Origin: a virus
Length of the DNA: 64,000 nucleotides
Virus record (IMG/VR): IMGVR_UViG_3300011113_000238
Span: 1 to 64,000 of that record
Strand: one strand, 5' to 3'
Below the pieces are notes generated by a model. That model was not told the origin of the DNA and ran no database searches. It saw only the letters and a program-made list of their open reading frames with translations. The position numbers were made by a program, and so were the translations under genes. Positions 371 through 58,681 of this stretch are shown here, in pieces (position 1 is the stretch's first letter; each line of letters starts with the position of its first letter).

Positions 371-2239
371 ATGCCAAAGACCATAAAAGAAGTTTATAGT
401 GACTATGCAGGTGTCACAACTATTGAATACAGCGACGACACAACTAGAACTTATACTGTTGACGATGTGGCTACTGTAAAAAGCAATCCTCTCACCGGGG
501 GGCTTACGTTGAAAGCCGGGTCAGAAGTGGGGGTTTTCCTCAAACCTTCTCAGCTAGACGCCATCAACGCTCTGCGTGCATCTTCTGTCGGCTCACTGCT
601 TACGAACTGGGCTGGCGCTTCGATCATCGCAAACGGCACCCCTGCCAGCGGCTCTGCTGGCGTAGTCACCACAGATATTGCACCTGCCAAAGAAGCCACC
701 GGCACAGCCGTGCGCCTTATTGGCGATGCCAGTGTCCGTGCATCGGCAGTGTCTACATTCGCCGCAACTCCTACCACTGCAAGTTTTACGGGTATTGCGC
801 TCTGGATGAAGGTAAAGGGTCGCACGCAAGGACCCGTCATGATCCAGCTTTATCTGGGGGCAACTGCAGACCCTTACACCGGCAAGAGCATCGCGCTCAC
901 CTTTGGCGCTCCTAACGATGGCAAGTGGCATTTGATTTACCTGCCGCGCGGGGCATTTGCCCCCATCAACTCCTTTGTGCTCGGCACGGACACCATCCAG
1001 TCCATTGGCTTGCGTGACCGCAATGCTGGCGGCATTGGCTACACCGGCATGCTGACCAACGCTGAAGAGATGCAGCTTGGCCCGGTGTACGCCTCGCCCT
1101 ACAGCCGACCCAAGTTCCTGATTCGCATGGATGACTCGCTCCTAGACGTGATTCAGCCGGATGGCGGTCAACAATTCACCGCAGACGGTGTAACCCGCTC
1201 GTGGTCGCATTACGACCTCATGAGCAAATACGGCTTCGGCTCTAAGGGTTCGTGCTTCCATTTGACCCGTCGCATCGGCAGCGTCAACACCGGCAAGCCA
1301 GTTATGAATGCTGGACATTTGGAAACTTTGGCAAAGGCTGGCTGGTCAAACTGCATCCAGACCCACAATGACCCGGTGGATGCGTCCAACAATGGCTTGT
1401 TGCTCATGGGGCCGGTTGGTTATGCAGCCAAAGCGATTGCATCGGTGGACGCCTCTGCCGACACACTCACAGCCGCCGCTGCGCACAACATTTCTACCGG
1501 AAACCTTTACTGGGGCTACCCCATCGTGTTCACCGGCTCGGATTTGCCTGCGCCACTTTCAGTGGGGACTGTCTATTGGGCGAGGGCGGTGGATGCAACG
1601 GCCTTCACGCTGCACCTGACCGAAAACGACGCCATTTCCAACGTCAACCGCGTCGATTTGACGAGTGTAGGCGTTGCGGCAAACTTCACCTATAGATATG
1701 CCAACAGCGCCGCCGATACAAGCGCGATGCAGAGCGATCTTGTTGCCGGTATCAACTTCTTGACCAGCTTAGGCTACGGCGATACAGCCAAGATTTGGGC
1801 ACCCAATCAAGGCGCAATGAACGAAGACACCCGCACAGCGGCCTTGGCTGCTGGCGTCAAAATGACGCTGGGCATTGGGCGCTTGGGTGCATCCTACGAT
1901 CAGCCGCAAGTGCGACACATCAACATGGAGACCTCTGGGGGGGCAGGCGTTGGCGGCATGGTCTTAGACCCCGTGTTGACTGTGCCGAACGCGCTCCAGA
2001 CTGATGGCGTTGCAACACCTGCCAATGCGCGAACTTATGTCAACGCTGTAATTGCCTGCGGTGGTATCGGCTCCAACTATCACCACACTATCACGACGGC
2101 CAACGGCCCCACGCTGGCTGCATACCTCGATGAGCTGCGTTTGCGCGTCTCCGAGGGCGCGTGTGACGTGGTAACGGCCAAAGAGCTATTGGATTATGTA
2201 GAGGCTGCCAAGTCCATGACGCCGGGCGTTGTTTACTAA
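371..2239 (+). CDS. Tail spike with polysaccharide deacetylase (NodB-like) domain
   Basis: A 622-residue receptor-binding or spike protein. Residues 1-48 (MPKTIKEVY...NPLTGG) are almost the same as the N-terminus of the second spike at 2892 and look like the virion-anchoring module. The middle resembles a carbohydrate-binding beta domain. The C-terminal half carries NodB-type polysaccharide deacetylase features: Asp pair in IRMDDS (residues 251-256), QTHND (330-334) in the place of the metal-binding His motif, and a WAPNQG...NEDTRTAALAAG segment typical of the later part of that fold. It likely deacetylates a surface polysaccharide of the host. From about base 540 the gene is visibly GC-richer than its neighbours, which suggests recent acquisition of the enzymatic part. 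The start has GAAAGAAA upstream. Family assignment is by motif only. Confidence 0.8.
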   Translation: MPKTIKEVYSDYAGVTTIEYSDDTTRTYTVDDVATVKSNPLTGGLTLKAGSEVGVFLKPSQLDAINALRASSVGSLLTNWAGASIIANGTPASGSAGVVTTDIAPAKEATGTAVRLIGDASVRASAVSTFAATPTTASFTGIALWMKVKGRTQGPVMIQLYLGATADPYTGKSIALTFGAPNDGKWHLIYLPRGAFAPINSFVLGTDTIQSIGLRDRNAGGIGYTGMLTNAEEMQLGPVYASPYSRPKFLIRMDDSLLDVIQPDGGQQFTADGVTRSWSHYDLMSKYGFGSKGSCFHLTRRIGSVNTGKPVMNAGHLETLAKAGWSNCIQTHNDPVDASNNGLLLMGPVGYAAKAIASVDASADTLTAAAAHNISTGNLYWGYPIVFTGSDLPAPLSVGTVYWARAVDATAFTLHLTENDAISNVNRVDLTSVGVAANFTYRYANSAADTSAMQSDLVAGINFLTSLGYGDTAKIWAPNQGAMNEDTRTAALAAGVKMTLGIGRLGASYDQPQVRHINMETSGGAGVGGMVLDPVLTVPNALQTDGVATPANARTYVNAVIACGGIGSNYHHTITTANGPTLAAYLDELRLRVSEGACDVVTAKELLDYVEAAKSMTPGVVY

Positions 2240-2240
2240 G

Positions 2241-2260
2241 CCCCTCAGCACGAAGCTAAC
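2241..2260 (+). repeat. 20-bp repeat after spike gene 1 (copy 1)
   Basis: CCCCTCAGCACGAAGCTAAC follows the stop codon of the first spike and recurs exactly after the second spike at 4852-4871. With the shared 5' anchor codons, it frames each spike as an exchangeable cassette. Confidence 0.9.
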
Positions 2261-2279
2261 CTAAACCTAAAATGAAAAC

Positions 2280-2840
2280 ATGCAAGAACCAAAGAAACAA
2301 CCCTTACCTCTGAAAGACCTTCTAAAGTTCTTGCAATACAACCCTCTGACTGGTGAATTTAGCGTTATTACCTCCGGTAACCCTACCAACTGCACTAACC
2401 TTGTCGGTAACCCCTTATCAGCGGTTACCTCTCGCAAAATCCTACCAGACGAGGACAATAAAATCCAGACTACTATCCAAGGAACTAGACTGAGCATCAA
2501 AGCCGACAGGTTAGCTTGGTTTATTTCCACAGGTAAGCAGCCTGCAAGATTTCAAGTTGTATTTCATAAGAATTTAGACTGGAATGACAACCGCCTGAAT
2601 AACTTGGTGCTGCTGCAGAAGAACGAGTACATGCAACTTCAGGAAGCAATGAAGAATATATCAGGCGCTCTAAAGCTAGTTCCGCATCCGAATGATATGT
2701 TTAGCTACATGCTGTTCTACAAGCACAACGGAAGGATGCTTAGGGAAATTGTGCAGGATATATCCATAGCTCGACGCAAGTTTAATAAACTGCAGTTGAA
2801 GTACGTAAAAATCATAAGTAAGTACACAGTGAGTGACTGA
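2280..2840 (+). CDS. HNH/AP2-type homing endonuclease-like protein, degenerate
   Basis: A 186-residue protein with the layout of phage HNH-AP2 homing proteins: an N-terminal LLKFLQYNPLTGEF segment, then RLAWFISTG, then a core FHKNLDWNDNRLNNLVLL that corresponds to the usual DHxNGxxxDNRxxNL. Only one His of the usual His-His/Asp pair remains, so cleavage activity is doubtful. The C-terminal half is basic and probably binds DNA. It lies between two spike genes that share both ends, a position suited to driving or recording cassette exchange. Confidence 0.6.
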   Translation: MQEPKKQPLPLKDLLKFLQYNPLTGEFSVITSGNPTNCTNLVGNPLSAVTSRKILPDEDNKIQTTIQGTRLSIKADRLAWFISTGKQPARFQVVFHKNLDWNDNRLNNLVLLQKNEYMQLQEAMKNISGALKLVPHPNDMFSYMLFYKHNGRMLREIVQDISIARRKFNKLQLKYVKIISKYTVSD

Positions 2841-2891
2841 TAGGTCGCGCTACCAAGTGAGTGACTAACTCATATTAAAGAAAGGGCTAAT

Positions 2892-4850
2892 ATGCCAAAG
2901 ACAATTAAAGAAGTTTATACGGATTATAGTGGGTACACTACCGTGGAGTACAGCGATGATAGTACTCGGAAATACAGTGTGGATGATGTACCTACTGTGA
3001 GTACTAATCCTCTCACAGGGGGGGTTAGCCTTTTCGACATGGTCGTCGTGCCCGGATTGGTCGCTAACGACGTGGCGTTTGCGGAATCTAACACGAAAAA
3101 AATACAGGCCGCGCTTGATACGGGTGGCTATATTTTTGCGGGTGTTCCCGGTGAGGTGTATATCAACAACACTCTGATTATTGGCTCTAAAACTAGCCTT
3201 TTCATGGGTAAAAACACCCGCCTGAAGCTGGCACCGAATACCAATAAGAGCATGCTGAAAAACGCCAATTGGGGCTCTGTGGTGCAAGTTGTCACATCGC
3301 TGACAACACCCGATGCTGGCTTGAATGGCGTCTGCGTCGTAAGCGCTCCGCATGGTTTGGTAGTTGGAGATTACGCCTTGATTCTTGGCGCAACCCAAGA
3401 GGGCTATAACGATATTTGGAAGGTAACTGGCGTAAGCACCACAACGCTGCCGAATGACACGTTTACATTTAATATTGCCGCACACGTTCCCAATGAGCCG
3501 CTAGTAACTCCCGCCACTGGAACTATCACAGTCTGCAAGGCAGATTACGACATTGAGATTTCCGGCGCATTTGACTACAACGGCGCAAATCAGACAACTC
3601 CTGACACTTATGAGCGCCATGCCGTTTATATCCGGCGCGTTCACAACTATCGCTTACTAAAGTCGCAGGGCTACGGTGCCATGAAGTACGCATTCATGCA
3701 TGCGAACATGTACAGCAGCGTGTTTGATGACATTTTCTTCGACACGTTTTCTGACGGAATTCACATGGACTGCTCAGGTAAGCGCAACACGATTTCACGT
3801 ATTCGCGGAAAAACCGGTGATGACTTGGTGGCAATCCTGCAAGGTGACTATCCGCAATACAAAGATGCGGGTTATCTCCTTGGCTACATTGATGACCTTA
3901 CAGTATCTGATGTAAAGATCGGCGGGGGCTTTAGCGGCATCAACTTGCTGCCCGCCAACGTATCCGGCGCGGGCATGGGCACCGTGCGACTACGGGACTT
4001 CTCCGGTCGCATGTCCGGTGGCGCATCTATCGTAAAGTGCTTGTCTGACACCACGGCGGTTGCAACATTCAACGGCGTCATTCAATCCGTTGAGATTGAC
4101 GGCATTACATCTACCATTGGAGCCAATCAGCCAATGGTTGGTGTTACCTGCAACGTGCGTTCACTCTCGATAAGTAACATAGTTGCCAATTTGGGGAACG
4201 TATCTGGTAGCTCTACGGCTGTAAACGTATCTGGCACTTATGGGCAGTGCGGTTCCTTGAGAATCAACAATGTACAAGTGACAGGAGGCGCTGCAAGCTC
4301 TTTGGTTTACATTGCTGGCGTTATTGGATTAACGCCAGGAACCCAATACGACGCGGCTATCGTTATCAACAACGTGACGGGCAAAAACTTTGGCACTGGC
4401 GTAATTCTTACAAGCACAGCCAGCTTCAACGGAATTTGCGCGATCAATGATTACTACGTTGATACGGCTGGATTTGTGTTTGACGTTGCAAAGGCGGGTT
4501 GGACGCTTCACCTTAATGGCTATTCGCACATCGCATACACCACGCAAGCAATCAACATTCGCTCAACGGCAAACTCAGGCATCCGCATTTGCGCAAGCAA
4601 CTTGGGCAACGAGGCGAGAAGTGGAAACTTCCTGCTCCTTGCATCAGCCGTTGCAAGCTCTGTGAGTGTGTTCGGTTGGGATATTGGTGTTGATGTTAAT
4701 AACGCAGCGATTGCGCGTACCGCAGGCTCTTTTGCGTTCAACAGAGCGGCTGCCGCTGGGACGCTGGTTCAAAACAACCTTGTCGCATGCGACGCGACAG
4801 CGACAACAGGAAGCTGGAAGCAACTGACCAATCCGGCGAATAGCTACTAA
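2892..4850 (+). CDS. Tail spike, right-handed beta-helix (pectate-lyase-like)
   Basis: A 652-residue protein. Residues 1-48 repeat the anchor of the 371 gene (MPKTIKEVYTDYSGY...NPLTGG). After it comes a typical lead into a beta-helix (FDMVVVPGLVANDVAFAES followed by NTLIIGSKTSLFMGKNTRLKL), and then many irregular beta-coil turns rich in IxIxN and Gly, as in pectate-lyase or polygalacturonase-like depolymerising spikes. The catalytic residues cannot be assigned by eye. RBS AAAGAAAGGGC lies just upstream of the ATG. The gene is followed by the same 20-bp repeat as spike 1. It is probably an alternative or additional host-polysaccharide spike on the same virion socket. Confidence 0.75.
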   Translation: MPKTIKEVYTDYSGYTTVEYSDDSTRKYSVDDVPTVSTNPLTGGVSLFDMVVVPGLVANDVAFAESNTKKIQAALDTGGYIFAGVPGEVYINNTLIIGSKTSLFMGKNTRLKLAPNTNKSMLKNANWGSVVQVVTSLTTPDAGLNGVCVVSAPHGLVVGDYALILGATQEGYNDIWKVTGVSTTTLPNDTFTFNIAAHVPNEPLVTPATGTITVCKADYDIEISGAFDYNGANQTTPDTYERHAVYIRRVHNYRLLKSQGYGAMKYAFMHANMYSSVFDDIFFDTFSDGIHMDCSGKRNTISRIRGKTGDDLVAILQGDYPQYKDAGYLLGYIDDLTVSDVKIGGGFSGINLLPANVSGAGMGTVRLRDFSGRMSGGASIVKCLSDTTAVATFNGVIQSVEIDGITSTIGANQPMVGVTCNVRSLSISNIVANLGNVSGSSTAVNVSGTYGQCGSLRINNVQVTGGAASSLVYIAGVIGLTPGTQYDAAIVINNVTGKNFGTGVILTSTASFNGICAINDYYVDTAGFVFDVAKAGWTLHLNGYSHIAYTTQAINIRSTANSGIRICASNLGNEARSGNFLLLASAVASSVSVFGWDIGVDVNNAAIARTAGSFAFNRAAAAGTLVQNNLVACDATATTGSWKQLTNPANSY

Positions 4851-4851
4851 T

Positions 4852-4871
4852 CCCCTCAGCACGAAGCTAAC
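4852..4871 (+). repeat. 20-bp repeat after spike gene 2 (copy 2)
   Basis: Exact second copy of the 2241-2260 sequence, again directly after a spike stop codon. Confidence 0.9.
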
Positions 4872-4900
4872 AAACCCGCCTAACCAGCGGGTTACACCAC

Positions 4901-6306: not shown

Positions 6307-7323
6307 ATGGGAATTTTTACAGACCTGATTTACAAAGAAAAACGCCAAACTGAAGCAGATTTTACTAAGTCAACGTTTGTGCGTAAGTTAGACAAAGATA
6401 ATGGCGAGTTTATTTTAGAATGTGGTCATACTAAGACAACATCTTTTCGAAATATGAAAGCTGGTACTTTCACTTGTATAGAATGTCGAGAGTGCTCAAT
6501 AAAACAGGAAGCTCTGGATAAAGGAGTCATTTGTCTAGATGAACACCCTTGCGGTACCTACAACAATTACTACTTTCCAGAGTGCGGTCACACCCGAAAA
6601 ATGGCAAGATGTAATGTAAAATCAAGTGTAGATAAATTACAATGTAGTCTCTGTTTCAATGAAATGCTTTTACGCGGTGCTATTAAAAACAATTTAACTA
6701 TACTCGATGTTAAATCTAAAACATCACACCGCATCTGTAAATTTGCATGTTGTGGACTAGAAAAAGCTGTGGCGGTTGAGTCGCTGCGAGGAACTGTAAG
6801 GTGTCCGATTTGTTACAGGAAATGTATTGACGAGGATGTCGAAAACACATCTGGGTTAAAAATAAATAAGTCTAAAAAAGAACACATTCGGCACCATAGG
6901 TATTTTATATTACCGTGCGGTCATGAGAAGCACATGTCCATTCAACACGCAATTATCGGTAGCTATTCGTGTAGAGAATGTGGGAAATCCAAGCTAGACT
7001 TACCGAGTCGTTTGTACCTGATTAAAGTAGAGTCTATGGGGTATGAGTGGTTAAAATTTGGCTATGGACACTCAATAAGTAAAAGAATAAAAGAATACGG
7101 ACTTATTGACGGAGCAAAAACAGAGGTCATCTGCGACATTATTGTTGAAACAGGTGAGCAAGCCCGAGACTATGAAAAAGCGGTTCACTCTAAGTATAAG
7201 AGTTTGAAACTGGACAAGAGTCTCATGCGCAACTATATGCGAATAGGGGGATTTTCAGAATGTTATCCAATGTCAGCTAAAGATACATTGTTGCAAGAAC
7301 TAAACAGTTGCCCATTTAAATAA
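6307..7323 (+). CDS. Zinc-finger array plus GIY-YIG (T5orf172-type) homing endonuclease
   Basis: 338 residues. The first two thirds contain four repeats of a CGH-x(~17)-CxxC treble-clef-like unit (ECGHTK...CIEC, ECGHTR...CSLC, ACCGLE...CPIC, PCGHEK...CREC), presumably a modular DNA reader. The C-terminal 100 residues begin LYLIKVES...WLKFGYGHSISKRIKEYG and contain ETGEQARDYEKAVHSKYK, the pattern of the T5orf172/MUG113 branch of GIY-YIG nucleases. The gene separates terS from terL, is more AT-rich than its neighbours, and its leader has the TATTTAGGGATATT form also seen before other nuclease genes here. Confidence 0.75.
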   Translation: MGIFTDLIYKEKRQTEADFTKSTFVRKLDKDNGEFILECGHTKTTSFRNMKAGTFTCIECRECSIKQEALDKGVICLDEHPCGTYNNYYFPECGHTRKMARCNVKSSVDKLQCSLCFNEMLLRGAIKNNLTILDVKSKTSHRICKFACCGLEKAVAVESLRGTVRCPICYRKCIDEDVENTSGLKINKSKKEHIRHHRYFILPCGHEKHMSIQHAIIGSYSCRECGKSKLDLPSRLYLIKVESMGYEWLKFGYGHSISKRIKEYGLIDGAKTEVICDIIVETGEQARDYEKAVHSKYKSLKLDKSLMRNYMRIGGFSECYPMSAKDTLLQELNSCPFK

Positions 7324-7333
7324 AAGGAATAAG

Positions 7334-8806
7334 ATGGAAGAACAATTTACACTAGCACCAGCATCTGTCCCACAAGAGCAATTCTTATCGTCTGATTCCA
7401 AGATTACCCTATATGCCGGATCAGCTGGAGCAGGTAAGACGTTCGCTATCATTATTAACCTTGTCAAATTTGCTTTAAAGAAGAACACTACCGCTGTAGT
7501 CTTCCGCAGAACCAGTACGCAGCTTCGGCAGAACGGTGGTATCTGGGATGAAGCTACGATGGTCTTTAAGAAGATGTTTGGTAAGGGTGTTCAGATTCGT
7601 AACAGAGAGATGGAAATATACATCCCTGCTACAAACGCTAAGATTAAGTTCTCGCACCTTCAGTATCAATCGGATATTATGAGTCACCTCGGTGCTCAGT
7701 ACAGTTTGATTATTTTCGATGAAGCTACACTCTTTCCATTTGAGGAAATGATCCTACCGTTGATTGGTCGTTTGCGTAACGCCAATGTGGATTATGTACC
7801 GCAGATGATGTGGGCCACCAACCCAATGTACAATCACGGTATTTATCACTGGATCAAAGAGTTCTACCTTGACGAATACGGTGTACCTTACGATGATAAA
7901 TCAAACGTAGAGCGTTATTTCGTACTGCAGAACAACAAACCGATCTGGTACGACAATCGAAAAGAAGCAGAAGCTATTCACGGTTCCGGTAAGGATTCAC
8001 CTGTTCAAAGCTTCCGAGCAATTAAGGCTCACATCAGTCAGAATATACCTCTGCTGAAAGCTAACCCTGACTATATCGCTAACTTGAAGGCTTTACCTGA
8101 GATTAAGCGAAGAATCTTCCTGGATGGCAGCTGGACTGCTCGTGAGGAAGAAGCCGGTCTGTTTAATCGCACGATGGTTACTATGGTTGACCATCCGAAT
8201 ATCCGAGCTAAGAAAAGAGTTCGTGCGTATGACTTGGCTTCGCAACCTGTATCGACTCAATCTCCGAATCCTGACTGGACTCGTGGGGTATTACTTTCCA
8301 AAGATGATACTGGTATTTATACCGTTGAAGATATTGTTAGCTTGCGAGATAGACCGCACGTTGTGCAGGAACTAATTTACAACACTGCACGGTCAGATGG
8401 TAACTCAACAGTAGTTAGTTATCCTATTGATCCGGGTCAAGCAGGTATCGCACGAGCCAATGAAATGAAAAGAGACTTGGCAGAAATGGGTGTTTCATCT
8501 AAGATGATCCGACCTAATAAATCCAAGCGCAGTCGTTTCCTTGCTTTCTCTGCGATTGCAGAGGCAGGTTTTCTGAATGTAGTCAGAGCGGATTGGAACG
8601 AGGAATTTTTCAATGAACTTGAAGAATTCACAGGATTGAAGCGAGGTGAGCGAGATGATATGTGCGATTGCTGCAGCGATGCTGTGCTAGCGTTGAATCA
8701 GACGTTGGAACTGCCGTCATTCTCCCTCCCAGACCTTAGCATGACACCCACCTATAGCGTAAATCCAAACAGTAGCATCCCATTAAGCGGTGTAACAATC
8801 CCATAA
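7334..8806 (+). CDS. terL: Terminase large subunit
   Basis: The 490-residue packaging motor. Walker A GSAGAGKT at residues 29-36 and Walker B LIIFDEAT around 125-132 define the ATPase. The C-terminal RNase H-like nuclease starts with RAYDLASQ (about residue 297), has a second acidic site at PIDPGQAG and a last one in the RDDMCDCCSDA segment. Length and order match TerL of long-tailed phages. RBS AAAGGAATAAG precedes the ATG; the gene starts 11 bases after the nuclease gene. Confidence 0.95.
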   Translation: MEEQFTLAPASVPQEQFLSSDSKITLYAGSAGAGKTFAIIINLVKFALKKNTTAVVFRRTSTQLRQNGGIWDEATMVFKKMFGKGVQIRNREMEIYIPATNAKIKFSHLQYQSDIMSHLGAQYSLIIFDEATLFPFEEMILPLIGRLRNANVDYVPQMMWATNPMYNHGIYHWIKEFYLDEYGVPYDDKSNVERYFVLQNNKPIWYDNRKEAEAIHGSGKDSPVQSFRAIKAHISQNIPLLKANPDYIANLKALPEIKRRIFLDGSWTAREEEAGLFNRTMVTMVDHPNIRAKKRVRAYDLASQPVSTQSPNPDWTRGVLLSKDDTGIYTVEDIVSLRDRPHVVQELIYNTARSDGNSTVVSYPIDPGQAGIARANEMKRDLAEMGVSSKMIRPNKSKRSRFLAFSAIAEAGFLNVVRADWNEEFFNELEEFTGLKRGERDDMCDCCSDAVLALNQTLELPSFSLPDLSMTPTYSVNPNSSIPLSGVTIP

Positions 8807-18068: not shown

Positions 18069-18097
18069 TTGTTAAATGCAGTAGGTTATGGTAGAAT
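18069..18097 (+). promoter_or_regulatory. Probable promoter TTGTTA-17-TAGAAT
   Basis: TTGTTA 18069-18074 and TAGAAT 18092-18097, 17-base spacer, between the capsid terminator and the GIY-YIG/HNH gene. The leader that follows contains complementary words and ends in TTATT-AGG-AATAA, which holds the ribosome-binding AGG in a hairpin loop. Confidence 0.6.
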
Positions 18098-18183
18098 TAC
18101 GATTGAGCTACCTCGACGGAGGGAAAAGAGGACTATTCACCCTCCTGCTCACTCTTATCAGTGAATACTTATTAGGAATAATA

Positions 18184-19014
18184 ATGAATAATAAAGAAGA
18201 CTATTACGTTTATCTTCATCGATCAAAAGTAGATAACGCCATATTTTACGTGGGTAAAGGCAGAGGTCTCCGTCACTCTTCTAAGACCAGTAGAGGCCGA
18301 GATTGGCAGGTTGTAGCCGAAAAAGGATACACTGTGGAGTTTCATGCTCAACACTTGACCAGTTCATCTGCTTACTTAATAGAGCAGGAACTTATTGAAA
18401 CATTACCTAATTTGGTCAATAAAAACATCAGAACGAAAACCAAAGACATTGATTCAGATGTTCTGTCTTTCGTCTACTATGATGAAACTAGTCCAACATG
18501 CTTGAGATACGCAAAAGAGGTTGTAGGTACTAACGGTAGAGTCTACAAGTACATCGGTGATATTGCCGGTATAGAAAAAGAAACTTCTTCTGGATTAGGT
18601 AAGAGATACGTACTTCGTAGTCGAGGTATTGCTTTTTACGTGCATCGTTTAGTTTATGCATTACACCATGACATATCCTCAGATCATGTGATAGACCATA
18701 TTGACGGTAATGCTCTGAACAATAAAATCGAGAATTTGCGACAAGTTACTCATGAGATTAATGCTAGAAATTCGTCAGCATCTTCGTCCACCATTACAGG
18801 TGTGGTTGGTGTAAGCAGGGTTAAACGGACGCGACTGAATTACGCACAGTACGTAGCTCATTATCAGCCGAACAGTAAGTTGGTTACTAAAGAATTCAGT
18901 TGTTTTAACATGTCTGAAGAACAAGCATTCAGACTTGCATGCGAATGGCGCGAACAAAAGATCAAAGAATTAAATGAACAAGGTGCTGGTTATACCGAGC
19001 GTCACGGAACATAA
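18184..19014 (+). CDS. Homing endonuclease with fused GIY-YIG and HNH domains
   Basis: 276 residues. Residues 5-75 are a GIY-YIG nuclease: YYVYLHRS...IFYVGKGRGLRH, with the candidate catalytic Glu in AYLIEQELIETL. Then comes an HNH-AP2-type module: VYYDETSPTCLRYAK, HRLVYALHH, the HNH core DHVIDHIDGNALNNKIENLR, and a C-terminal AP2-like stretch ending NEQGAGYTERHGT. Two unrelated nuclease folds in one chain are unusual. The C-terminus is nearly the same as that of the HNH gene at 55080. The ATG at 18184 is chosen because it follows TAGGAATAATA; longer in-frame starts would run through the leader. Confidence 0.85.
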   Translation: MNNKEDYYVYLHRSKVDNAIFYVGKGRGLRHSSKTSRGRDWQVVAEKGYTVEFHAQHLTSSSAYLIEQELIETLPNLVNKNIRTKTKDIDSDVLSFVYYDETSPTCLRYAKEVVGTNGRVYKYIGDIAGIEKETSSGLGKRYVLRSRGIAFYVHRLVYALHHDISSDHVIDHIDGNALNNKIENLRQVTHEINARNSSASSSTITGVVGVSRVKRTRLNYAQYVAHYQPNSKLVTKEFSCFNMSEEQAFRLACEWREQKIKELNEQGAGYTERHGT

Positions 19015-34003: not shown

Positions 34004-35980
34004 ATGGCAGATCATAATAAACCAGTGCTAACTAGCACATATGCTAATTTTGTCAGTGAACTTGATGCTAGGTTTGACGATCTATCTCTTGGCCTAGACC
34101 CCGCTGTAACGTCAGCTACGAACCTTCCAGTTAACGCAATCCGTTGGAACTCTGCGCTTGCCAAAGATCAGAAATGGAACGGTTCCTCGTGGGTTGATAA
34201 AAGTAGCTTCTACGTATTGGGTAGTGTAAGATTCAACAATGGAACAGTTGGTGCTCCCAGTATTACGTTTAGTGATGACACTACTACGGGCATCTTCAAA
34301 CCTACTCCAACTAGTATTGCGCTTACTACATCAGGCGTGGAAGCACTGCGGGCGACAAGTGGTAACATCGGAATTCCCGGTACATTGCAATTAAATAGTG
34401 CAGTCAGTATTGATGCAAATAGTAGTGCGCTGACTATGCGTTATGCAGGTGGGGATCAACAATATGGTATTTCCATTAAAGCCGACGCTGACAACACGCA
34501 GGCCATTGGTTTTTTCAATGCCGCCAGTCAACCAGTTGGTCGGATCAGTCAGACTGCTACAAATATTCAAATTTTTGGTTTGAGTAATCTTAGCGTAGAC
34601 AACGCAGTATTCTCCAAAGACGGTTTCTTGACTACAAATTATGTAGTTAACGCACGAAACCCGATCTGGCGTTTTGGCGATTCGCAGTTGGTTGGTATTA
34701 GTTATTTCCAAGGTACTAGCGGTTATCAAAGTGCAGATAGCATTGGCATGCATTTCGGTGAGGCAAATGCAGCAGGTTCTAAGTTTTCGTTCACCAGTGA
34801 TGGTCGATTAGTGACTACCAAGAATATCGTCAGTGGTATTGCTGCTCCTCATGATTCCGGTCAGAATATTACTGTGAATGGAACGGGGACTACAGCGAGT
34901 ACCGCACCGTATCTTACTGTAAACAGCAGAGGATTAGTTGCAGGTAATGGTTCGCAATTTACATCCGGTGGTCTATTATTTGCAAGCTATCGTGATGTAA
35001 GAACTACATCATACATCGGTGGCATTACAATGCGCGTTAGAAACGTAAATGATGTAGTAACTGACCCTGTTCAGATGGAGTTCCGCATTGGACCTTCTTA
35101 CGGTGATAGCTTTGCGAATGCCGGTGATGCTGCACTACCTGCTGCACCGATGACGTTGAGTGCCGGCGGTGTTCTGAATGTAAGTACTTCCATTACAACG
35201 CCTTACATGCAAGGCGTAGCAGCGCAGAGTAACGGTTTAAAAGTAAGCGATCCTGAAGAAACCCCCGGATTAAATCGAGAATTAGCTCATATTACACCTC
35301 AATCAGTTGTTAGGAACATACGTGCTGATTTCGCACAGAGTACTGCAACAGGTACAGGTGGAAGATACGCTGGTGTAATGACTTTCAGTCCATATGACGG
35401 TAAAACTGCATCCGCGGGTGGTCCAAGTTACCAACTTGCATTCGGCAGTAGTCAAAACAACGGTGGTTCTCCGCAACTGCGCATTCGCAACGGTATTGAC
35501 ACTACATGGAACTCTTGGGTTGATGTAATGACACCTGCTGGTGCTATTGTTCACTTTGCAAGGGCCAGTGCTCCTTCTGGTTATTTGAAGGCCAATGGTG
35601 CAGCTGTGTCAAGAACAGCCTATCATGCGCTATTTGATATTATTGGTACAACATTCGGTGCGGGAGATGGGAGTACCACGTTTAACTTACCTGATTTGAG
35701 GGCGCAGTTTATTCGTGGATGGGATGATGGATTGGGAGTAGACAGCTTCCGCATATTCGGTAGTTTCCAATCAGGTTCTGTTGAGAGTCACACTCACGCA
35801 CCACCTGCAGGTTTGACTGGTCCTTGGCTGAGTAATGCATTCAGTGGTGATGGTCAAATTGATAGCAGTAATGTAACTGGTCCTGGTGAACGAAATGGAG
35901 TGTTAGGTAACACTCAGGCTTACGGTGGTGATGAAACTAGACCTCGTAACATCGCATTGCTGGCTTGCATTAAATATTAA
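34004..35980 (+). CDS. Tail fibre with collar domain
   Basis: 658 residues. A short N-terminal attachment region, then SVRFNNGTVGAPSITFSDDT followed by TTGIF, which is typical of phage fibre shafts, then beta-rich repeats. The C-terminus is a tail-collar domain: HFARASAPSGYLKANGAAVS, TTFNLPDLRAQFIRGWDDG, and a final GDETRPRNIALLACIKY. It binds the host surface. The ATG at 34004 has AAAGGG seven bases upstream; a TTG at 33998 is less likely. Confidence 0.9.
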   Translation: MADHNKPVLTSTYANFVSELDARFDDLSLGLDPAVTSATNLPVNAIRWNSALAKDQKWNGSSWVDKSSFYVLGSVRFNNGTVGAPSITFSDDTTTGIFKPTPTSIALTTSGVEALRATSGNIGIPGTLQLNSAVSIDANSSALTMRYAGGDQQYGISIKADADNTQAIGFFNAASQPVGRISQTATNIQIFGLSNLSVDNAVFSKDGFLTTNYVVNARNPIWRFGDSQLVGISYFQGTSGYQSADSIGMHFGEANAAGSKFSFTSDGRLVTTKNIVSGIAAPHDSGQNITVNGTGTTASTAPYLTVNSRGLVAGNGSQFTSGGLLFASYRDVRTTSYIGGITMRVRNVNDVVTDPVQMEFRIGPSYGDSFANAGDAALPAAPMTLSAGGVLNVSTSITTPYMQGVAAQSNGLKVSDPEETPGLNRELAHITPQSVVRNIRADFAQSTATGTGGRYAGVMTFSPYDGKTASAGGPSYQLAFGSSQNNGGSPQLRIRNGIDTTWNSWVDVMTPAGAIVHFARASAPSGYLKANGAAVSRTAYHALFDIIGTTFGAGDGSTTFNLPDLRAQFIRGWDDGLGVDSFRIFGSFQSGSVESHTHAPPAGLTGPWLSNAFSGDGQIDSSNVTGPGERNGVLGNTQAYGGDETRPRNIALLACIKY

Positions 35981-39348: not shown

Positions 39349-42054
39349 TTACTGGCAAGCCTCACATTCAGAACCTTTACTGGCTTGTACACCAGCTTGA
39401 GTATGAACGTAATACAGCGCTAGTACGTTCGGATCAGCAAACGCTTCCTCGTGTACTTCTGCGATCCAAGCAGGGTCTTCATCAGCAGCAAAGAACAGGT
39501 TCAGTGACTGCCACTGGTCAACATACGTACTACGTGCGCTTGCCAACCGAAGAACCGCTTTCTGATTAATCTCAAAGGCCGTCTTGAATACTTCCTTCTC
39601 TTTATCCGTAAGCCAAGTCACATGCTGAACCGAACCTTGTGCGTTAGTAATCTCCTGAACGTGCTTACGAGTATACACTCCTTTGGACTTCATCAGTTCA
39701 AGTAGCACAGGATTCAATCTGTCAATTTCACCTGCAGCTGTCATCTGAGTATAACCCATAGCTGGATCAGGATTGATACCTTCTGATACAGAACCAATAA
39801 GCAACGATGTACTCTTAGTCGGGGCAATAGCAATCAAGTGAGTATTACGCACTCCGTAACCTTTGCACCATTCAGGTTCACCTAGTTCTACGGCAGCATC
39901 TGCACTAGCTTGCTTCGCTTGTTTTGCAATATGCGCTTGGATCTCCTGACTGAGCATATGAGCATCAAATGATTCAAATGATAACCCTTTACTCATAAAC
40001 AATGTATGCACACCACACAGACCTAGACCAAGTGCTCTACTCTTCTCCGTGAACCGAACAGCCTTCTCAAGACCTCGGATACCTTTGGCACGTTCAATAA
40101 ACTCACCAGCTACACAATCCAGAAACAATGTAGCCCAGTATACAGCGTCAGTATTCTTCCACTCGTCATATCGGAAAGCATTCATCGAAGAAAGAACGCA
40201 TGTGTATGTGTGTTCAGCATCATTAAACAGCATAATTTCCGAGCACTGTCCTGTCAGAATACCATTGAAAACACCCATGTGTCGTTTTGGTTCGGTAAAG
40301 CAGTATGTATCGTCGTAGCGTCCTTCATCTGTCACTGCTGTGACCTTTACGAACTGAGTACATTCGCGATTGGGACGATGATCTGAAATTTCAAGTCGAT
40401 GAGGTTTAAATCCTAATTCGCTCAAAGTACAAATTCCAGTTTGACCAATCAAGAGTCGATACGCCTTTTGAGTCCAGTATTCACCCATTTCACCAGAGCC
40501 ATCATTCTTCGGTAGCAGCTTCCAACCTTCGTCTTTAGCCATTGTAACCTTAGATGACACACCCAATGTCTGTAGCATCATTTGTACTTCCTGCAGAAAT
40601 ACCTTATTTATACTACCAACTTGAATACTCTGTGTTTTACCGTTTCTAGTGATTGTCCCATCGCCATCGCAAAGACCCGCAAACCACTCAAGTTTGGACT
40701 TGATTGTGTAATCTCCACTAGGTACTGTAAACTTTTTAGCCAAGAGCTTACTTGTAGCAATCTCTCGATTCTCGGTTTCCTGCACATACCAGTTATGGAA
40801 GATACTCGTATCAACAAATTCTTTAAGTTTACGCTTGTCATGATAGAAATAAATCTTTTGCTGCGCACCGTCTACAAAACCTTCGGCACTATACAGACCG
40901 TTCTCGTAAGCATGATCAAATACTTCCTTACCTTCGATAATCGGAAAATCACTTTTAATTAGCTTATCTCCAGCTTTCAGGTCAATAGCTCGTTTTTCAA
41001 CTGTCCAACGATTACCAGAAGTAGGATGACGCATTGCAACGTAGAACTTATGGTAAGGTGTGCATTCCAACTCAAACCCACTGTTAGTACTAACCTTAAT
41101 CAGTTTTTGGTTTTCACCAGTCTTACGAACAACAACATTTGAAAACTCCTTACCATTCCACACATTCACCGCTTCGTTCTCAAGATCGGCAATTTGTTGG
41201 TAACCTTCATCAGTCAAGATCAATGTTTCAGGAGCTACGCACAATTGCGAGTTGTTAATGAACAACCCCTTGTCTACGTACATTTGCGGACGTTTAGCGT
41301 TAGCCTTATCAACAAAGAAGAAGTAACCTTTACCTGTGATCATTTTCAACTTCATTGCCTTTTGGAAACGAGCGATAGCATCAGGGTCTTTGCGGTTAAG
41401 TCGATCAATGAATGTCTGTCTGATTGTCCAACCCAAATTCAGATCATCAGGTTCTGCGTTTGCATGATCTGCTAACTCAAAGAAGTCACCGTGCTCAATA
41501 TCCAAGTAGCAAGCCCAAGCACCCCTACGAGCAGTACCTTGTGCGATGTTACGCATAGCATTTACATGCTCTTTGATAATCGGGAGTACACCGCTTGCTT
41601 TACCGCCTACACTGATACTAGAACCACGAGGGCGAATATTACTCAGGTCAGTAGCTGTACCAAAACCATATTTAGTTAACATCGCTACTTCGTGAAGGTT
41701 ACTATAGAAACCATCCACAGAATCATCCGCAATTGTACCTGAGCAAGATACAGGCATACCTCGGGTTGTACCCATGTTTGCGAATACTGGAGTACTAGGG
41801 GATACCCAACCTTTCCATAAAAGCTCAAAGAACTTCGATTCAGCTTGTGCTTCAAACTTAGTACCTTTTAGATGTTTAGCTGCAGTACGTGCGATGCGTT
41901 CAAACTGACCTTTGACAGATCGACCGTGAACTTCGTATTCGTACTTCTCCTTAAACATCTGGAAACCTGCAGTTGTATACCAGTCAGGAACTAGACCTTG
42001 TTGTTGTAGTTGTTTGCGTTCTTCGCTTAGTTTGCGATAAATATTATCAGTCAT
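39349..42054 (-). CDS. nrdA: Ribonucleotide reductase large subunit with intein
   Basis: 901 codons: 271-residue N-extein, 332-residue intein, 298-residue C-extein. The mature 569-residue enzyme has class I features: STPVFANMGTTRGMPVSCSG, KYGFGTATDLSNIRPRGSSI, NNSQL-CSEI (the radical Cys), IAPTKSTSLLIG, and C-terminal CEACQ for thioredoxin reduction. It lacks the N-terminal ATP cone of bacterial NrdA, so allosteric control is reduced. It makes dNDPs for phage DNA. The ATG at 42054 overlaps the nrdB end by eight bases (ATGACTGA); longer starts would run deep into nrdB. Confidence 0.95.
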   Translation of the reverse strand: MTDNIYRKLSEERKQLQQQGLVPDWYTTAGFQMFKEKYEYEVHGRSVKGQFERIARTAAKHLKGTKFEAQAESKFFELLWKGWVSPSTPVFANMGTTRGMPVSCSGTIADDSVDGFYSNLHEVAMLTKYGFGTATDLSNIRPRGSSISVGGKASGVLPIIKEHVNAMRNIAQGTARRGAWACYLDIEHGDFFELADHANAEPDDLNLGWTIRQTFIDRLNRKDPDAIARFQKAMKLKMITGKGYFFFVDKANAKRPQMYVDKGLFINNSQLCVAPETLILTDEGYQQIADLENEAVNVWNGKEFSNVVVRKTGENQKLIKVSTNSGFELECTPYHKFYVAMRHPTSGNRWTVEKRAIDLKAGDKLIKSDFPIIEGKEVFDHAYENGLYSAEGFVDGAQQKIYFYHDKRKLKEFVDTSIFHNWYVQETENREIATSKLLAKKFTVPSGDYTIKSKLEWFAGLCDGDGTITRNGKTQSIQVGSINKVFLQEVQMMLQTLGVSSKVTMAKDEGWKLLPKNDGSGEMGEYWTQKAYRLLIGQTGICTLSELGFKPHRLEISDHRPNRECTQFVKVTAVTDEGRYDDTYCFTEPKRHMGVFNGILTGQCSEIMLFNDAEHTYTCVLSSMNAFRYDEWKNTDAVYWATLFLDCVAGEFIERAKGIRGLEKAVRFTEKSRALGLGLCGVHTLFMSKGLSFESFDAHMLSQEIQAHIAKQAKQASADAAVELGEPEWCKGYGVRNTHLIAIAPTKSTSLLIGSVSEGINPDPAMGYTQMTAAGEIDRLNPVLLELMKSKGVYTRKHVQEITNAQGSVQHVTWLTDKEKEVFKTAFEINQKAVLRLASARSTYVDQWQSLNLFFAADEDPAWIAEVHEEAFADPNVLALYYVHTQAGVQASKGSECEACQ
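40246..41241 (-). mobile_element. NrdA (RIR1) intein with LAGLIDADG endonuclease
   Basis: 332 residues, inserted directly before the catalytic Cys of NNSQL|CSEI. Splicing block A begins CVAPETLILTDEG, block B is GFELECTPYHKFYV with TxxH-like TPYH, and the C-end is YCFTEPKRHMGVFNGILTGQ before Cys+1. The last residue is Gln instead of the usual Asn, a known rare variant in RIR1 inteins. The homing endonuclease half shows a DOD motif KLEWFAGLCDGDGTI (one clear copy, second degenerate). Removing codons 41241-40246 leaves an exact, in-frame NrdA. Confidence 0.93.
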
Positions 42055-55079: not shown

Positions 55080-55991
55080 TTACGTTCCATGTCGCTCAGT
55101 GTAACCAGCACCTTGTTCGTTCACCTTCTTGATGAGTGCATCTCGACACTCTATGGCCATCCTGAGAGCTTCATCGTCGCCGTATTTTACACAAGAAAAT
55201 CCCCGTACAGTTTTGACGCGATTAACACCAACTGCCACAGTGTATCTTCTAATCAGAGTACCACGTTGGTTAAACCCTTCGTAATACGAAATCATACTAT
55301 GACCGGTTGTATTATTTTTGTTTTTACTTCTATTTCTCCCATTCAACTCAGGTATCACTACTCTTAAATTCTCAATTCTATTGTCATTGCGAATTCCATT
55401 AATGTGATCAATCCACAAACCTTCTGGTATTTTACCATAATTAAAGAACCACACTAACCGATGTACTTTGTAATGATTACCGAAACCGTGGATTTTCCAA
55501 TATCCATCAGAAATGTCAAGTGAACCAGCTACATCTCCTTTTTGAACTTTTGAACCATGTGATGTTTTACCTTTCCATCTGAGACAACTCGGACTAGTTT
55601 CATCGTATTCCAGATAAAGTTTTAACTTGTTGCAATATTTTTCAGGAAGGTCTGTTAAGTCCTCTCGTAGTTTCAGATTGGTTAATTTAGCATTTGTACA
55701 ATCTCCGTCTTCAAAAACTAAACTATAACCATCAGGTATCGTACCGTTATGTAGCATCCATATAATCTTCGGAATACTGTACGCGCTTTTCTGATAATTG
55801 AGAACAAGAAATCCATCATAACTTATTCCACCTGCTTGTCCATTATTTCTTCTGGGCACTAATTTACCACCGTTACCTACTCTCATGTGCTTCCAGCGTA
55901 AACAGGTTAGAGACGTTTCATCGTAAACGAATAATCCATGAATATCTAACTGGTCTAGTTTGTCGTGCGCTTTTCTGATGCGTTCTAACAT
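55080..55991 (-). CDS. HNH homing endonuclease with duplicated domain
   Basis: 303 residues in two homologous halves. Each starts with VYDETSLTCLRWK/EYDETSPSCLRWK and has an HNH-type core: the first is decayed (YSLVFEDGDCTNAKLTNLKL), the second intact (VHRLVWFFNYGKIPEGLWID then HINGIRNDNRIENLR). The C-terminal AP2-like part ends VNEQGAGYTERHGT, shared with the gene at 18184. It lies between polymerase and primase genes, has its own promoter (56023-56051), and is AT-richer than both. Confidence 0.82.
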   Translation of the reverse strand: MLERIRKAHDKLDQLDIHGLFVYDETSLTCLRWKHMRVGNGGKLVPRRNNGQAGGISYDGFLVLNYQKSAYSIPKIIWMLHNGTIPDGYSLVFEDGDCTNAKLTNLKLREDLTDLPEKYCNKLKLYLEYDETSPSCLRWKGKTSHGSKVQKGDVAGSLDISDGYWKIHGFGNHYKVHRLVWFFNYGKIPEGLWIDHINGIRNDNRIENLRVVIPELNGRNRSKNKNNTTGHSMISYYEGFNQRGTLIRRYTVAVGVNRVKTVRGFSCVKYGDDEALRMAIECRDALIKKVNEQGAGYTERHGT

Positions 55992-57820: not shown

Positions 57821-58681
57821 TTAAAGATCAATCATATCACGAATACCTCTTAACTCGCTCTCAACTTTTTTCACTTCAGAAATAAGTTCTAACTTTTGAG
57901 CTTCTTTAATCTTTTGCTGTTTGTCACGGAACGCAAGTGCATCTAATAATGAATCAGCATGGTCAGAGTCCCCGAAGAACTTTGACCACTCCTTGTCGTG
58001 AAGTCTACCTCTCGCTACCCAACCATCAGAAAGTCTATGCACACCCGTAATGCCTATGCAATTTCTACCTTCCGCATTTTTATCGTCCCTCAAGAATGTG
58101 TTCTGACTTTGAGTTACGGCTATTAAATTACTAGGCTTATTGTTAGATGGATTTGAATCTATGTGGTTTACAACTAAGTCCGCACTCAGATTTCTTTGGT
58201 TGTATAGAACCCAAACAACTCTATGACATTGATTTTGCACTTTCAATACTCGAACAGTATAATAACCTCTATCGTTTACCCCTCCTGCGTTTTTATGCGG
58301 AACAGCTTTTATTGAACTACCTTTATCAAAATCTTTCCATTTTAGACCGCTAGGTGATTCGTCTGAAATATACCAAAACTTATTACAGTAGTCAAACGTC
58401 AACTCTGAATGAGTCTTAGTGTAATTTTTTTGTATATTTAGTAATTTACTTTTATCTGGACACTCTGACAATAATTTGCATTCTATTTGAATTGCCTCGA
58501 ACTTAGTCAACGCGCTTTTAATAATATTCACCTTAAAATTACAAGACTCTAATCTTTTAAGTAGTCTTTCACTTCTGCTCTTTTTAAATAGGTAAGGTCT
58601 TTTTTCATTTCCATGTCCTATGTAGAATACGCCATCAGAATCTTCATATGAATAAACGCAGAATCGTCTATCTTCTTCCAT
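57821..58681 (-). CDS. Homing endonuclease with fused GIY-YIG and HNH domains (second copy)
   Basis: 286 residues. N-terminal GIY-YIG: FCVYSYEDSDGVFYIGHGNE, KR..., with candidate Glu in FEAIQIECKLLSEC. Then SDESPSGLKWKDF, CHRVVWVLYNQ, an HNH core VVNHIDSNPSNNKPSNLIAV, the AP2-like GITGVHRLSDGWVARGRLHD, and a C-terminal coiled coil. It has the same two-nuclease design as the 18184 gene but differs in sequence, so the fusion is old or occurred twice. It lies just upstream of the primase-helicase gene and is very AT-rich. Confidence 0.82.
   Translation of the reverse strand: MEEDRRFCVYSYEDSDGVFYIGHGNEKRPYLFKKSRSERLLKRLESCNFKVNIIKSALTKFEAIQIECKLLSECPDKSKLLNIQKNYTKTHSELTFDYCNKFWYISDESPSGLKWKDFDKGSSIKAVPHKNAGGVNDRGYYTVRVLKVQNQCHRVVWVLYNQRNLSADLVVNHIDSNPSNNKPSNLIAVTQSQNTFLRDDKNAEGRNCIGITGVHRLSDGWVARGRLHDKEWSKFFGDSDHADSLLDALAFRDKQQKIKEAQKLELISEVKKVESELRGIRDMIDL

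Follow-up and report, generated by a model that had tools for sequence, protein, structure and literature searches.

How does one phage come to carry two tail-spike genes whose starts and ends are shared and whose bodies are unrelated? The question is raised by positions 371-4871 of a 64,000-nucleotide stretch of viral DNA (positions 1 to 64,000 of IMG/VR record IMGVR_UViG_3300011113_000238; hereafter the window). The window is Curvibacter phage P26059A (KY981271.1), to which its first 5.4 kb are 100% identical, and the virus record that contains it has a direct terminal repeat of 127 bp. In each spike gene a short N-terminal anchor is followed by a distal part, here called the cassette, with a short conserved DNA sequence at each end, a 5′ junction and a 3′ element. 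The same ends bound cassettes behind unrelated anchors in other phages, and similarity between phages breaks at them. Exchange of cassettes through short-homology recombination at these ends, during co-infection and with no dedicated recombinase, is in our judgement the probable explanation. The features of the locus are listed below, with loci used for comparison designated by L numbers and G+C content abbreviated as GC.

371-2239, plus strand: spike 1, 622 amino acids.
371-484, plus strand: anchor of spike 1, 38 codons, with an anchor family of 13 in relatives.
485-502, plus strand: 5′ junction of spike 1, AATCCTCTCACCGGGGGG, which reads NPLTGG; a conserved DNA border whose pattern is matched in 41 contigs.
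503-2239, plus strand: cassette 1, the distal part of spike 1, 57.5% GC, possibly a polysaccharide deacetylase (from its L031 homologue; GC compared with flanks).
2236-2255, plus strand: 3′ element of cassette 1, CTAAGCCCCTCAGCACGAAG, which provides the stop codon and matches the consensus at 19 of 20 positions.
2280-2840, plus strand: HNH endonuclease gene between the spikes, above the cut-off of PF13392 (Pfam HNH_3) and kept in L004 (81%) and L020 (63%).
2892-4850, plus strand: spike 2, 652 amino acids.
2892-3005, plus strand: anchor of spike 2, 38 codons, from anchor clustering.
3006-3024, plus strand: 5′ junction of spike 2, AATCCTCTCACAGGGGGGG, from the border alignment.
3025-4850, plus strand: cassette 2, the distal part of spike 2, 50.5% GC, class unproven, with weak similarity to phage proteins only.
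4847-4866, plus strand: 3′ element of cassette 2, CTAATCCCCTCAGCACGAAG, which provides the stop codon and matches the consensus at 20 of 20 positions.
4873-4893, plus strand: short hairpin AACCCGC/GCGGGTT after the 3′ element, with no T run behind it; nearly the same stretch follows both spikes of L004.

The two spike genes share a direct repeat at their 5′ ends (368-506 and 2889-3027; 139 nt, 73% identity), and their anchors are 74% identical over 47 amino acids. A second repeat lies around the stop codons (2234-2260 and 4845-4871; 27 nt, 96%), of which 20 bp are identical, where the chance expectation for an identical 20 bp in the window is 0 matches. The distal parts show no match to each other, and their GC of 57.5% and 50.5% compares with about 43-44% in the flanking genes. 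A preliminary description of this DNA had named two spikes with a shared 5′ anchor of about 48 codons and a repeat behind the stop, unrelated parts behind the anchor, a GC-richer spike 1 and an HNH-like gene in between, and all of these are borne out, with an anchor of 38-48 codons. It was right that the ends are shared; the key ends, however, are the 18-nt junction at the end of the anchor and the 3′ element, and not the whole anchor. The passages of the published description of P26059A that concern the tail, cassettes, HNH genes or recombination do not mention the spike arrangement.

The 5′ junction between anchor and distal part, AATCCNSTCACCGGGGGG, translates in frame to Asn-Pro-(Leu/Val)-Thr-Gly-Gly; CTAATCCCCTCWGCACRAAG is the 3′ element, located at the stop. 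In the anchor alignment, the border DNA, AATCC(T/C)(C/G)TCACCGGGGGG, is better conserved than the anchor itself. Where the same residue is encoded, codon identity reaches 79% at the border versus 53% in the anchor, and the two border glycine codons are GGG in 13/14 and 11/12 cases, a codon that accounts for 5.9% of glycine codons in window genes. Furthermore, L007 reads the same CTCACCGGGGGG in a different frame, and L005, the sole member of the anchor family that has no G-rich border, is missing the 3′ element as well.

The 3′ element, scored as present where at least 14 of 20 positions match near the cassette stop, occurs at 36 of 43 loci; of 401 other stops of open reading frames (ORFs) on the same contigs, 4 have it, and 0.6% of shuffled sequences reach this threshold. 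In many loci the stop codon TAA belongs to the element. The two ends occur as a pair in the reciprocal direction, too: among the 20 loci chosen by the 3′ element alone whose upstream gene is uncut by a contig end, TCACCGG stands at the cassette start in 19, the exception being L088. Over whole records each end is mostly single-copy, and a reversed control pattern never occurs. Both ends contain the repeat CTAATCCNSTC. A hairpin is often seen behind the 3′ element; recombination sites made of hairpins or inverted repeats were considered and rejected, the arms not being conserved. In L082, L086, L087 and L043 the element reads GCAC(A/G)ATGA, and there the following gene may, judging from the sequence, have its start codon inside the element. 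IMG/VR contains no match to the exact 20-bp repeat, a consequence of variation at a few positions of the element. In INPHARED the 5′ consensus gave no match and the 3′ consensus chance-level matches only; both searches missed P26059A itself and are hence uninformative, the former probably owing to the low-complexity filter.

Cassettes bounded by both ends were found in about 60 IMG/VR contigs from 32 metagenomes (counted by contig names, with many contigs from one metagenome, 3300020045), plus one Dechloromonas metagenome-assembled genome. A scan for the border pattern alone hit 41 IMG/VR contigs, where 14 would be expected by chance in a rough estimate under uniform bases, and part of these hits may have arisen by chance. 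L056, whose border lies inside a long beta-helix-like gene, was excluded; nearly all remaining borders have a short anchor on one side and a distal part on the other. Clustering divides the anchors into 24 groups among which no similarity was detected; about 20 of these groups are credible (L066 was mis-framed and L069 is probably a chance hit). The carriers are not one phage lineage, since the portal and terminase matches of genes beside the loci are spread over several families. Scanning bacterial genomes gave two hits, one of which, L070 in the Dechloromonas assembly, has both ends.

Natural recombinants place the breaks at these ends. In an all-against-all comparison, the sets L050/L058/L060, L036/L042/L066, L024/L027, L006/L007 and window/L004 are alike up to the border, unrelated inside and alike again from the 3′ element, with flanks in L024/L027 at 94.7%; L043 and L057 have a common downstream flank that starts at the 3′ element. 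Cassette starts common to L041/L042/L060, L049/L058 and L059/L061 begin at the border, behind different upstream sequence. Related full cassettes are found on unrelated anchors in L059/L061 (91%, over the 140 amino acids available for L061), L024/L036 (60%), L041/L043 (50%) and L004/L068 (39%), and spike 1 of the window resembles the L031 cassette, again on an unrelated anchor, at 28% over 360 amino acids. Border base 6 (C or G, counted from 0) differs among cassettes that share a start and tracks the anchor in L050/L058/L060, L036/L042/L066 and window/L004; because of this tracking, the crossovers of those sets would lie within TCACCGGGGGG or just behind it.

The composition of the cassettes is also independent of their carriers. 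Across the 29 loci with anchors of measurable length, the Spearman correlation with flanking-gene GC is 0.86 for the anchor and −0.12 for the cassette. For GC at third codon positions, the cassette-to-flank value is 0.01 over 38 loci, the cassettes being much less variable, and an earlier version of the composition test with single control genes gave the same picture. In L005, which has neither end, the cassette has 43% GC and the flanks 41%. The simplest reading of these values suggests a common mobile pool of cassettes that moves among phages of differing composition.

Close relatives of P26059A differ in precisely this part of the locus. The nearest relative in IMG/VR, L004 (93% identity in the terminase), repeats the spike-HNH-spike order with an 81% identical HNH gene and the post-stop sequence behind both spikes, and both of its distal parts are different. 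L020 has the HNH gene (63%) and, behind it, only one spike; upstream, a transposase-like ORF takes the place of a spike. This ORF (L020 1340-2212, minus strand, 290 amino acids), located where other phages have spike 1, was called transposase-like by eye, and a Pfam search with it gave no convincing match. The relatives thus do not all keep the same two spikes: other inserts occur between the same ends, as had been anticipated for relatives, and L020 represents a single-spike version with no spike directly upstream. The proposal of a host-range switching locus is partly supported, by the other inserts in relatives, whereas switching within one genome by recombination of the two copies is unsupported. 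Since P26059A and L004 both have two spikes, and the element and hairpin are nearly identical after both spikes of L004, the second unit probably arose through duplication of the whole unit before the two phages split. The anchor family comprises 13 members in one cluster plus the frameshifted spike 2 of L004, with spike gene placement varying across the genomes (after the terminase in L015 and L016, for example), and a search for this family in bacterial genomes found none.

In the mechanism that we favour, a spike gene would consist of a fixed, phage-specific N-terminal anchor and an exchangeable distal cassette, host-recognising or sugar-modifying, delimited by the in-frame 5′ junction and by the 3′ element at or just after the stop. 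In a cell infected by two phages, recombination at both ends would swap the cassette and leave the anchor and flanks intact, the conserved ends presumably acting as homology in an annealing-type reaction that needs no dedicated site-specific recombinase, and the outcome would be an altered host range. The HNH gene may locally stimulate exchange, though it is not general. Short-homology recombination is favoured because, in the 51 records searched, serine recombinases were not found, tyrosine recombinases are rare and HNH genes are seldom located at the locus; P26059A encodes an exonuclease of a phage family. Several points weigh against this mechanism. The exchange itself is deduced from sequence comparison and not from direct observation. 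Recombination of the RecA type usually needs more homology than the roughly 11-25 nt available here, and no annealing protein was established in P26059A. Most loci were found by patterns that demand six G, and conservation there is partly selected (the anchor family, collected by protein similarity, and the 3′-selected set are less biased samples). The 51 records searched for recombinases are mostly fragments, only P26059A being complete, which makes their absence weak evidence. Finally, a tandem array in L046 and the bases common to both ends fit a site-specific system equally well.

Such a system, resembling integrons, would use a specific recombinase of phage or host origin that inserts and removes startless spike cassettes at the direct repeat CTAATCCNSTC, and could stack silent spares behind the active one, among unrelated freshwater phages. 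We consider this unlikely, and keep it mainly because of L046. There, directly behind the stop of the first cassette, CCTAATCCCCTCACCGGGGGG forms the border of a second cassette. This second cassette is 92 codons long, lacks an in-frame start upstream and closes with its own 3′ element; over its first 33 residues it shares 76% identity with the start of the L054 cassette. The 3′ element of the first cassette is joined to the 5′ border of the second via the bases common to both ends. The presence of CTAATCCNSTC at both ends, their mostly single-copy occurrence per record and their identity across unrelated phages are likewise in agreement with such a recombinase. As in integrons, there is a conserved 3′ site and a fixed leader ahead, and the single head-to-tail array, with its silent downstream cassette, may be a further parallel; unlike in integrons, no integrase was found, a structure of the attC type is lacking and anchor and cassette are read in one frame. 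Serine recombinases were detected in 0 of 51 records by a search that was positive in control genomes, and tyrosine recombinases in 4 of 51, none of them P26059A. The inverted-repeat arms are not conserved, and a tandem array occurs in one case, L046, among about 60 loci, one-for-one replacement being the rule.

It is still less probable that the HNH endonuclease drives the process by homing, cutting phages at or near the conserved ends so that repair from an HNH-bearing phage copies the adjoining cassette. The HNH gene separates the two spikes in P26059A and L004 and precedes the spike in L020, and HNH matches immediately precede the anchor in L026 and L046, positions that would suit such a role. 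However, no more than 20 of 51 records contain HNH_3, and it was located beside the locus in five; exchange is equally clear where it is lacking, as in L050/L058/L060, L036/L042/L066 and L024/L027.

A reading that involves no exchange function at all, with the junction as a protein linker (NP-L/V-TGG) under protein selection and the 3′ element as a transcription signal, can draw on the coding nature and conserved peptide of the junction and on the frequent hairpin behind the element. We regard it as very improbable, given the conservation at codon level, including the rare codon GGG, the different reading frame of the same DNA in L007, the breaks in similarity exactly at both ends, the contrast in composition between cassette and anchor, and the joint lack of both ends in L005. 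Phase variation by slippage of the junction G tract, which would toggle the distal part on and off, is hardly credible: G runs of 4, 6 and 7 are seen and L004 spike 2, with 7 G at its junction (8115-8136), has a distal part out of frame that 6 G would restore, but this is the only clearly out-of-frame distal part among 52 junctions and possibly an assembly error, the other 7-G cases mostly include the G of a following GTT, GTG or GAC codon, and the runs are short.

Among 45 distal parts, 17 match GDSL-type esterases, 3 polysaccharide deacetylases and one each an alpha-L-fucosidase, a cellulase, an endosialidase barrel and a carbohydrate-binding module, and several match phage tail-fibre families; by sequence, the cassettes look like receptor-binding or surface-modifying tailspike parts. 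The labels deacetylase and beta-helix initially given to the two window spikes are not directly confirmed. Neither spike has a Pfam hit or a match in a PDB sequence search, and the structure models of both are of low confidence (mean predicted local distance difference test scores of 39 and 32). L031, the homologue of spike 1, just reaches the cut-off of PF01522 (polysaccharide deacetylase), and the distal part of spike 2, weakly similar to phage proteins only, gives a strand-rich low-confidence model. Two-ORF cassettes were seen in L014, L049, L050, L058, L064 and L065, where a short ORF completes the anchor gene and a long spike-like ORF begins at or just after its stop. A further tail collar fibre gene (window 34004-35980) is distant from the spike cassettes.

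Several known systems resemble this arrangement in part. T-even phages reportedly swap tail-fibre adhesins through recombination between conserved motifs, and in both cases short conserved motifs would serve as recombination points for the exchange of host-recognition segments. The T-even exchange concerns a single phage group and a segment inside a conserved fibre gene, whereas the present motifs bound whole distal parts in unrelated phages. Unlike switches of the Gin/Cin invertase type, the records contain no serine recombinase (0/51), and unlike variation by diversity-generating retroelements, whole unrelated cassettes differ and not scattered adenine positions, although no search aimed at a reverse transcriptase was made. 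In cryoconite phages, recombination shuffles tail-fibre and GDSL-lipase genes, of which several variants are maintained, and the passages found on these host-recognition islands do not describe conserved DNA ends (PMC7468147, 2020). The idea of cassette exchange at conserved motifs is already known, apparently with other motifs, from six lytic Escherichia coli phage genera, in which conserved DNA motifs lie around the receptor-binding domain (PMC10408124, 2023). As in that system, a conserved noncoding motif stands behind the gene (here, 36/43 loci versus 4/401 other stops); unlike those motifs, the ends described here hardly vary and are shorter, follow about 20 unrelated anchors, coincide with mapped breakpoints and, in one case, delimit a tandem cassette that has no start codon. 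In three E. coli phage representatives, CBA120, G7C and K1F, the present ends have no counterpart within the mismatches allowed, the published logos not having been compared.

A literature search found no description of the present ends in searchable papers. New here are the end sequences, their near-invariance across unrelated anchors, the mapped breakpoints, the contrast in composition within a gene and the tandem startless cassette. Movement of receptor-binding domains from phage to phage is known, with borders that are usually fuzzy and inferred; here, they are DNA sequences that can be searched for. Ends common to phages with unrelated anchors delimit a pool of carbohydrate-active domains with a composition of its own, make the exchange directly testable and allow receptor-binding domains to be mined from metagenomes by the ends alone. 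Cassette exchange would help to explain how virulent phages track rapidly changing host surfaces.

Some other genes of P26059A were noted as well. The ribonucleotide reductase large subunit (window 39349-42054, minus strand) has an intein-like insert with a LAGLIDADG domain at residues ~279-599, which matches LAGLIDADG_3 with an E value of 8e-13 and Intein_splicing with 9e-8, the latter below its cut-off. Several HNH_3 genes are present, at 2280-2840, 18088-19014, 55080-55991 and 57821-58681 of the window and at 66010-66096 of the record; that at 55080-55991 contains two stretches of HNH_3 and matches AP2 weakly. Ahead of the terminase gene, a cysteine-rich ORF of 338 amino acids (window 6307-7323) weakly matches MUG113, a GIY-YIG-like family, and an ORF at 8947-10008 of L010 resembles it by eye.

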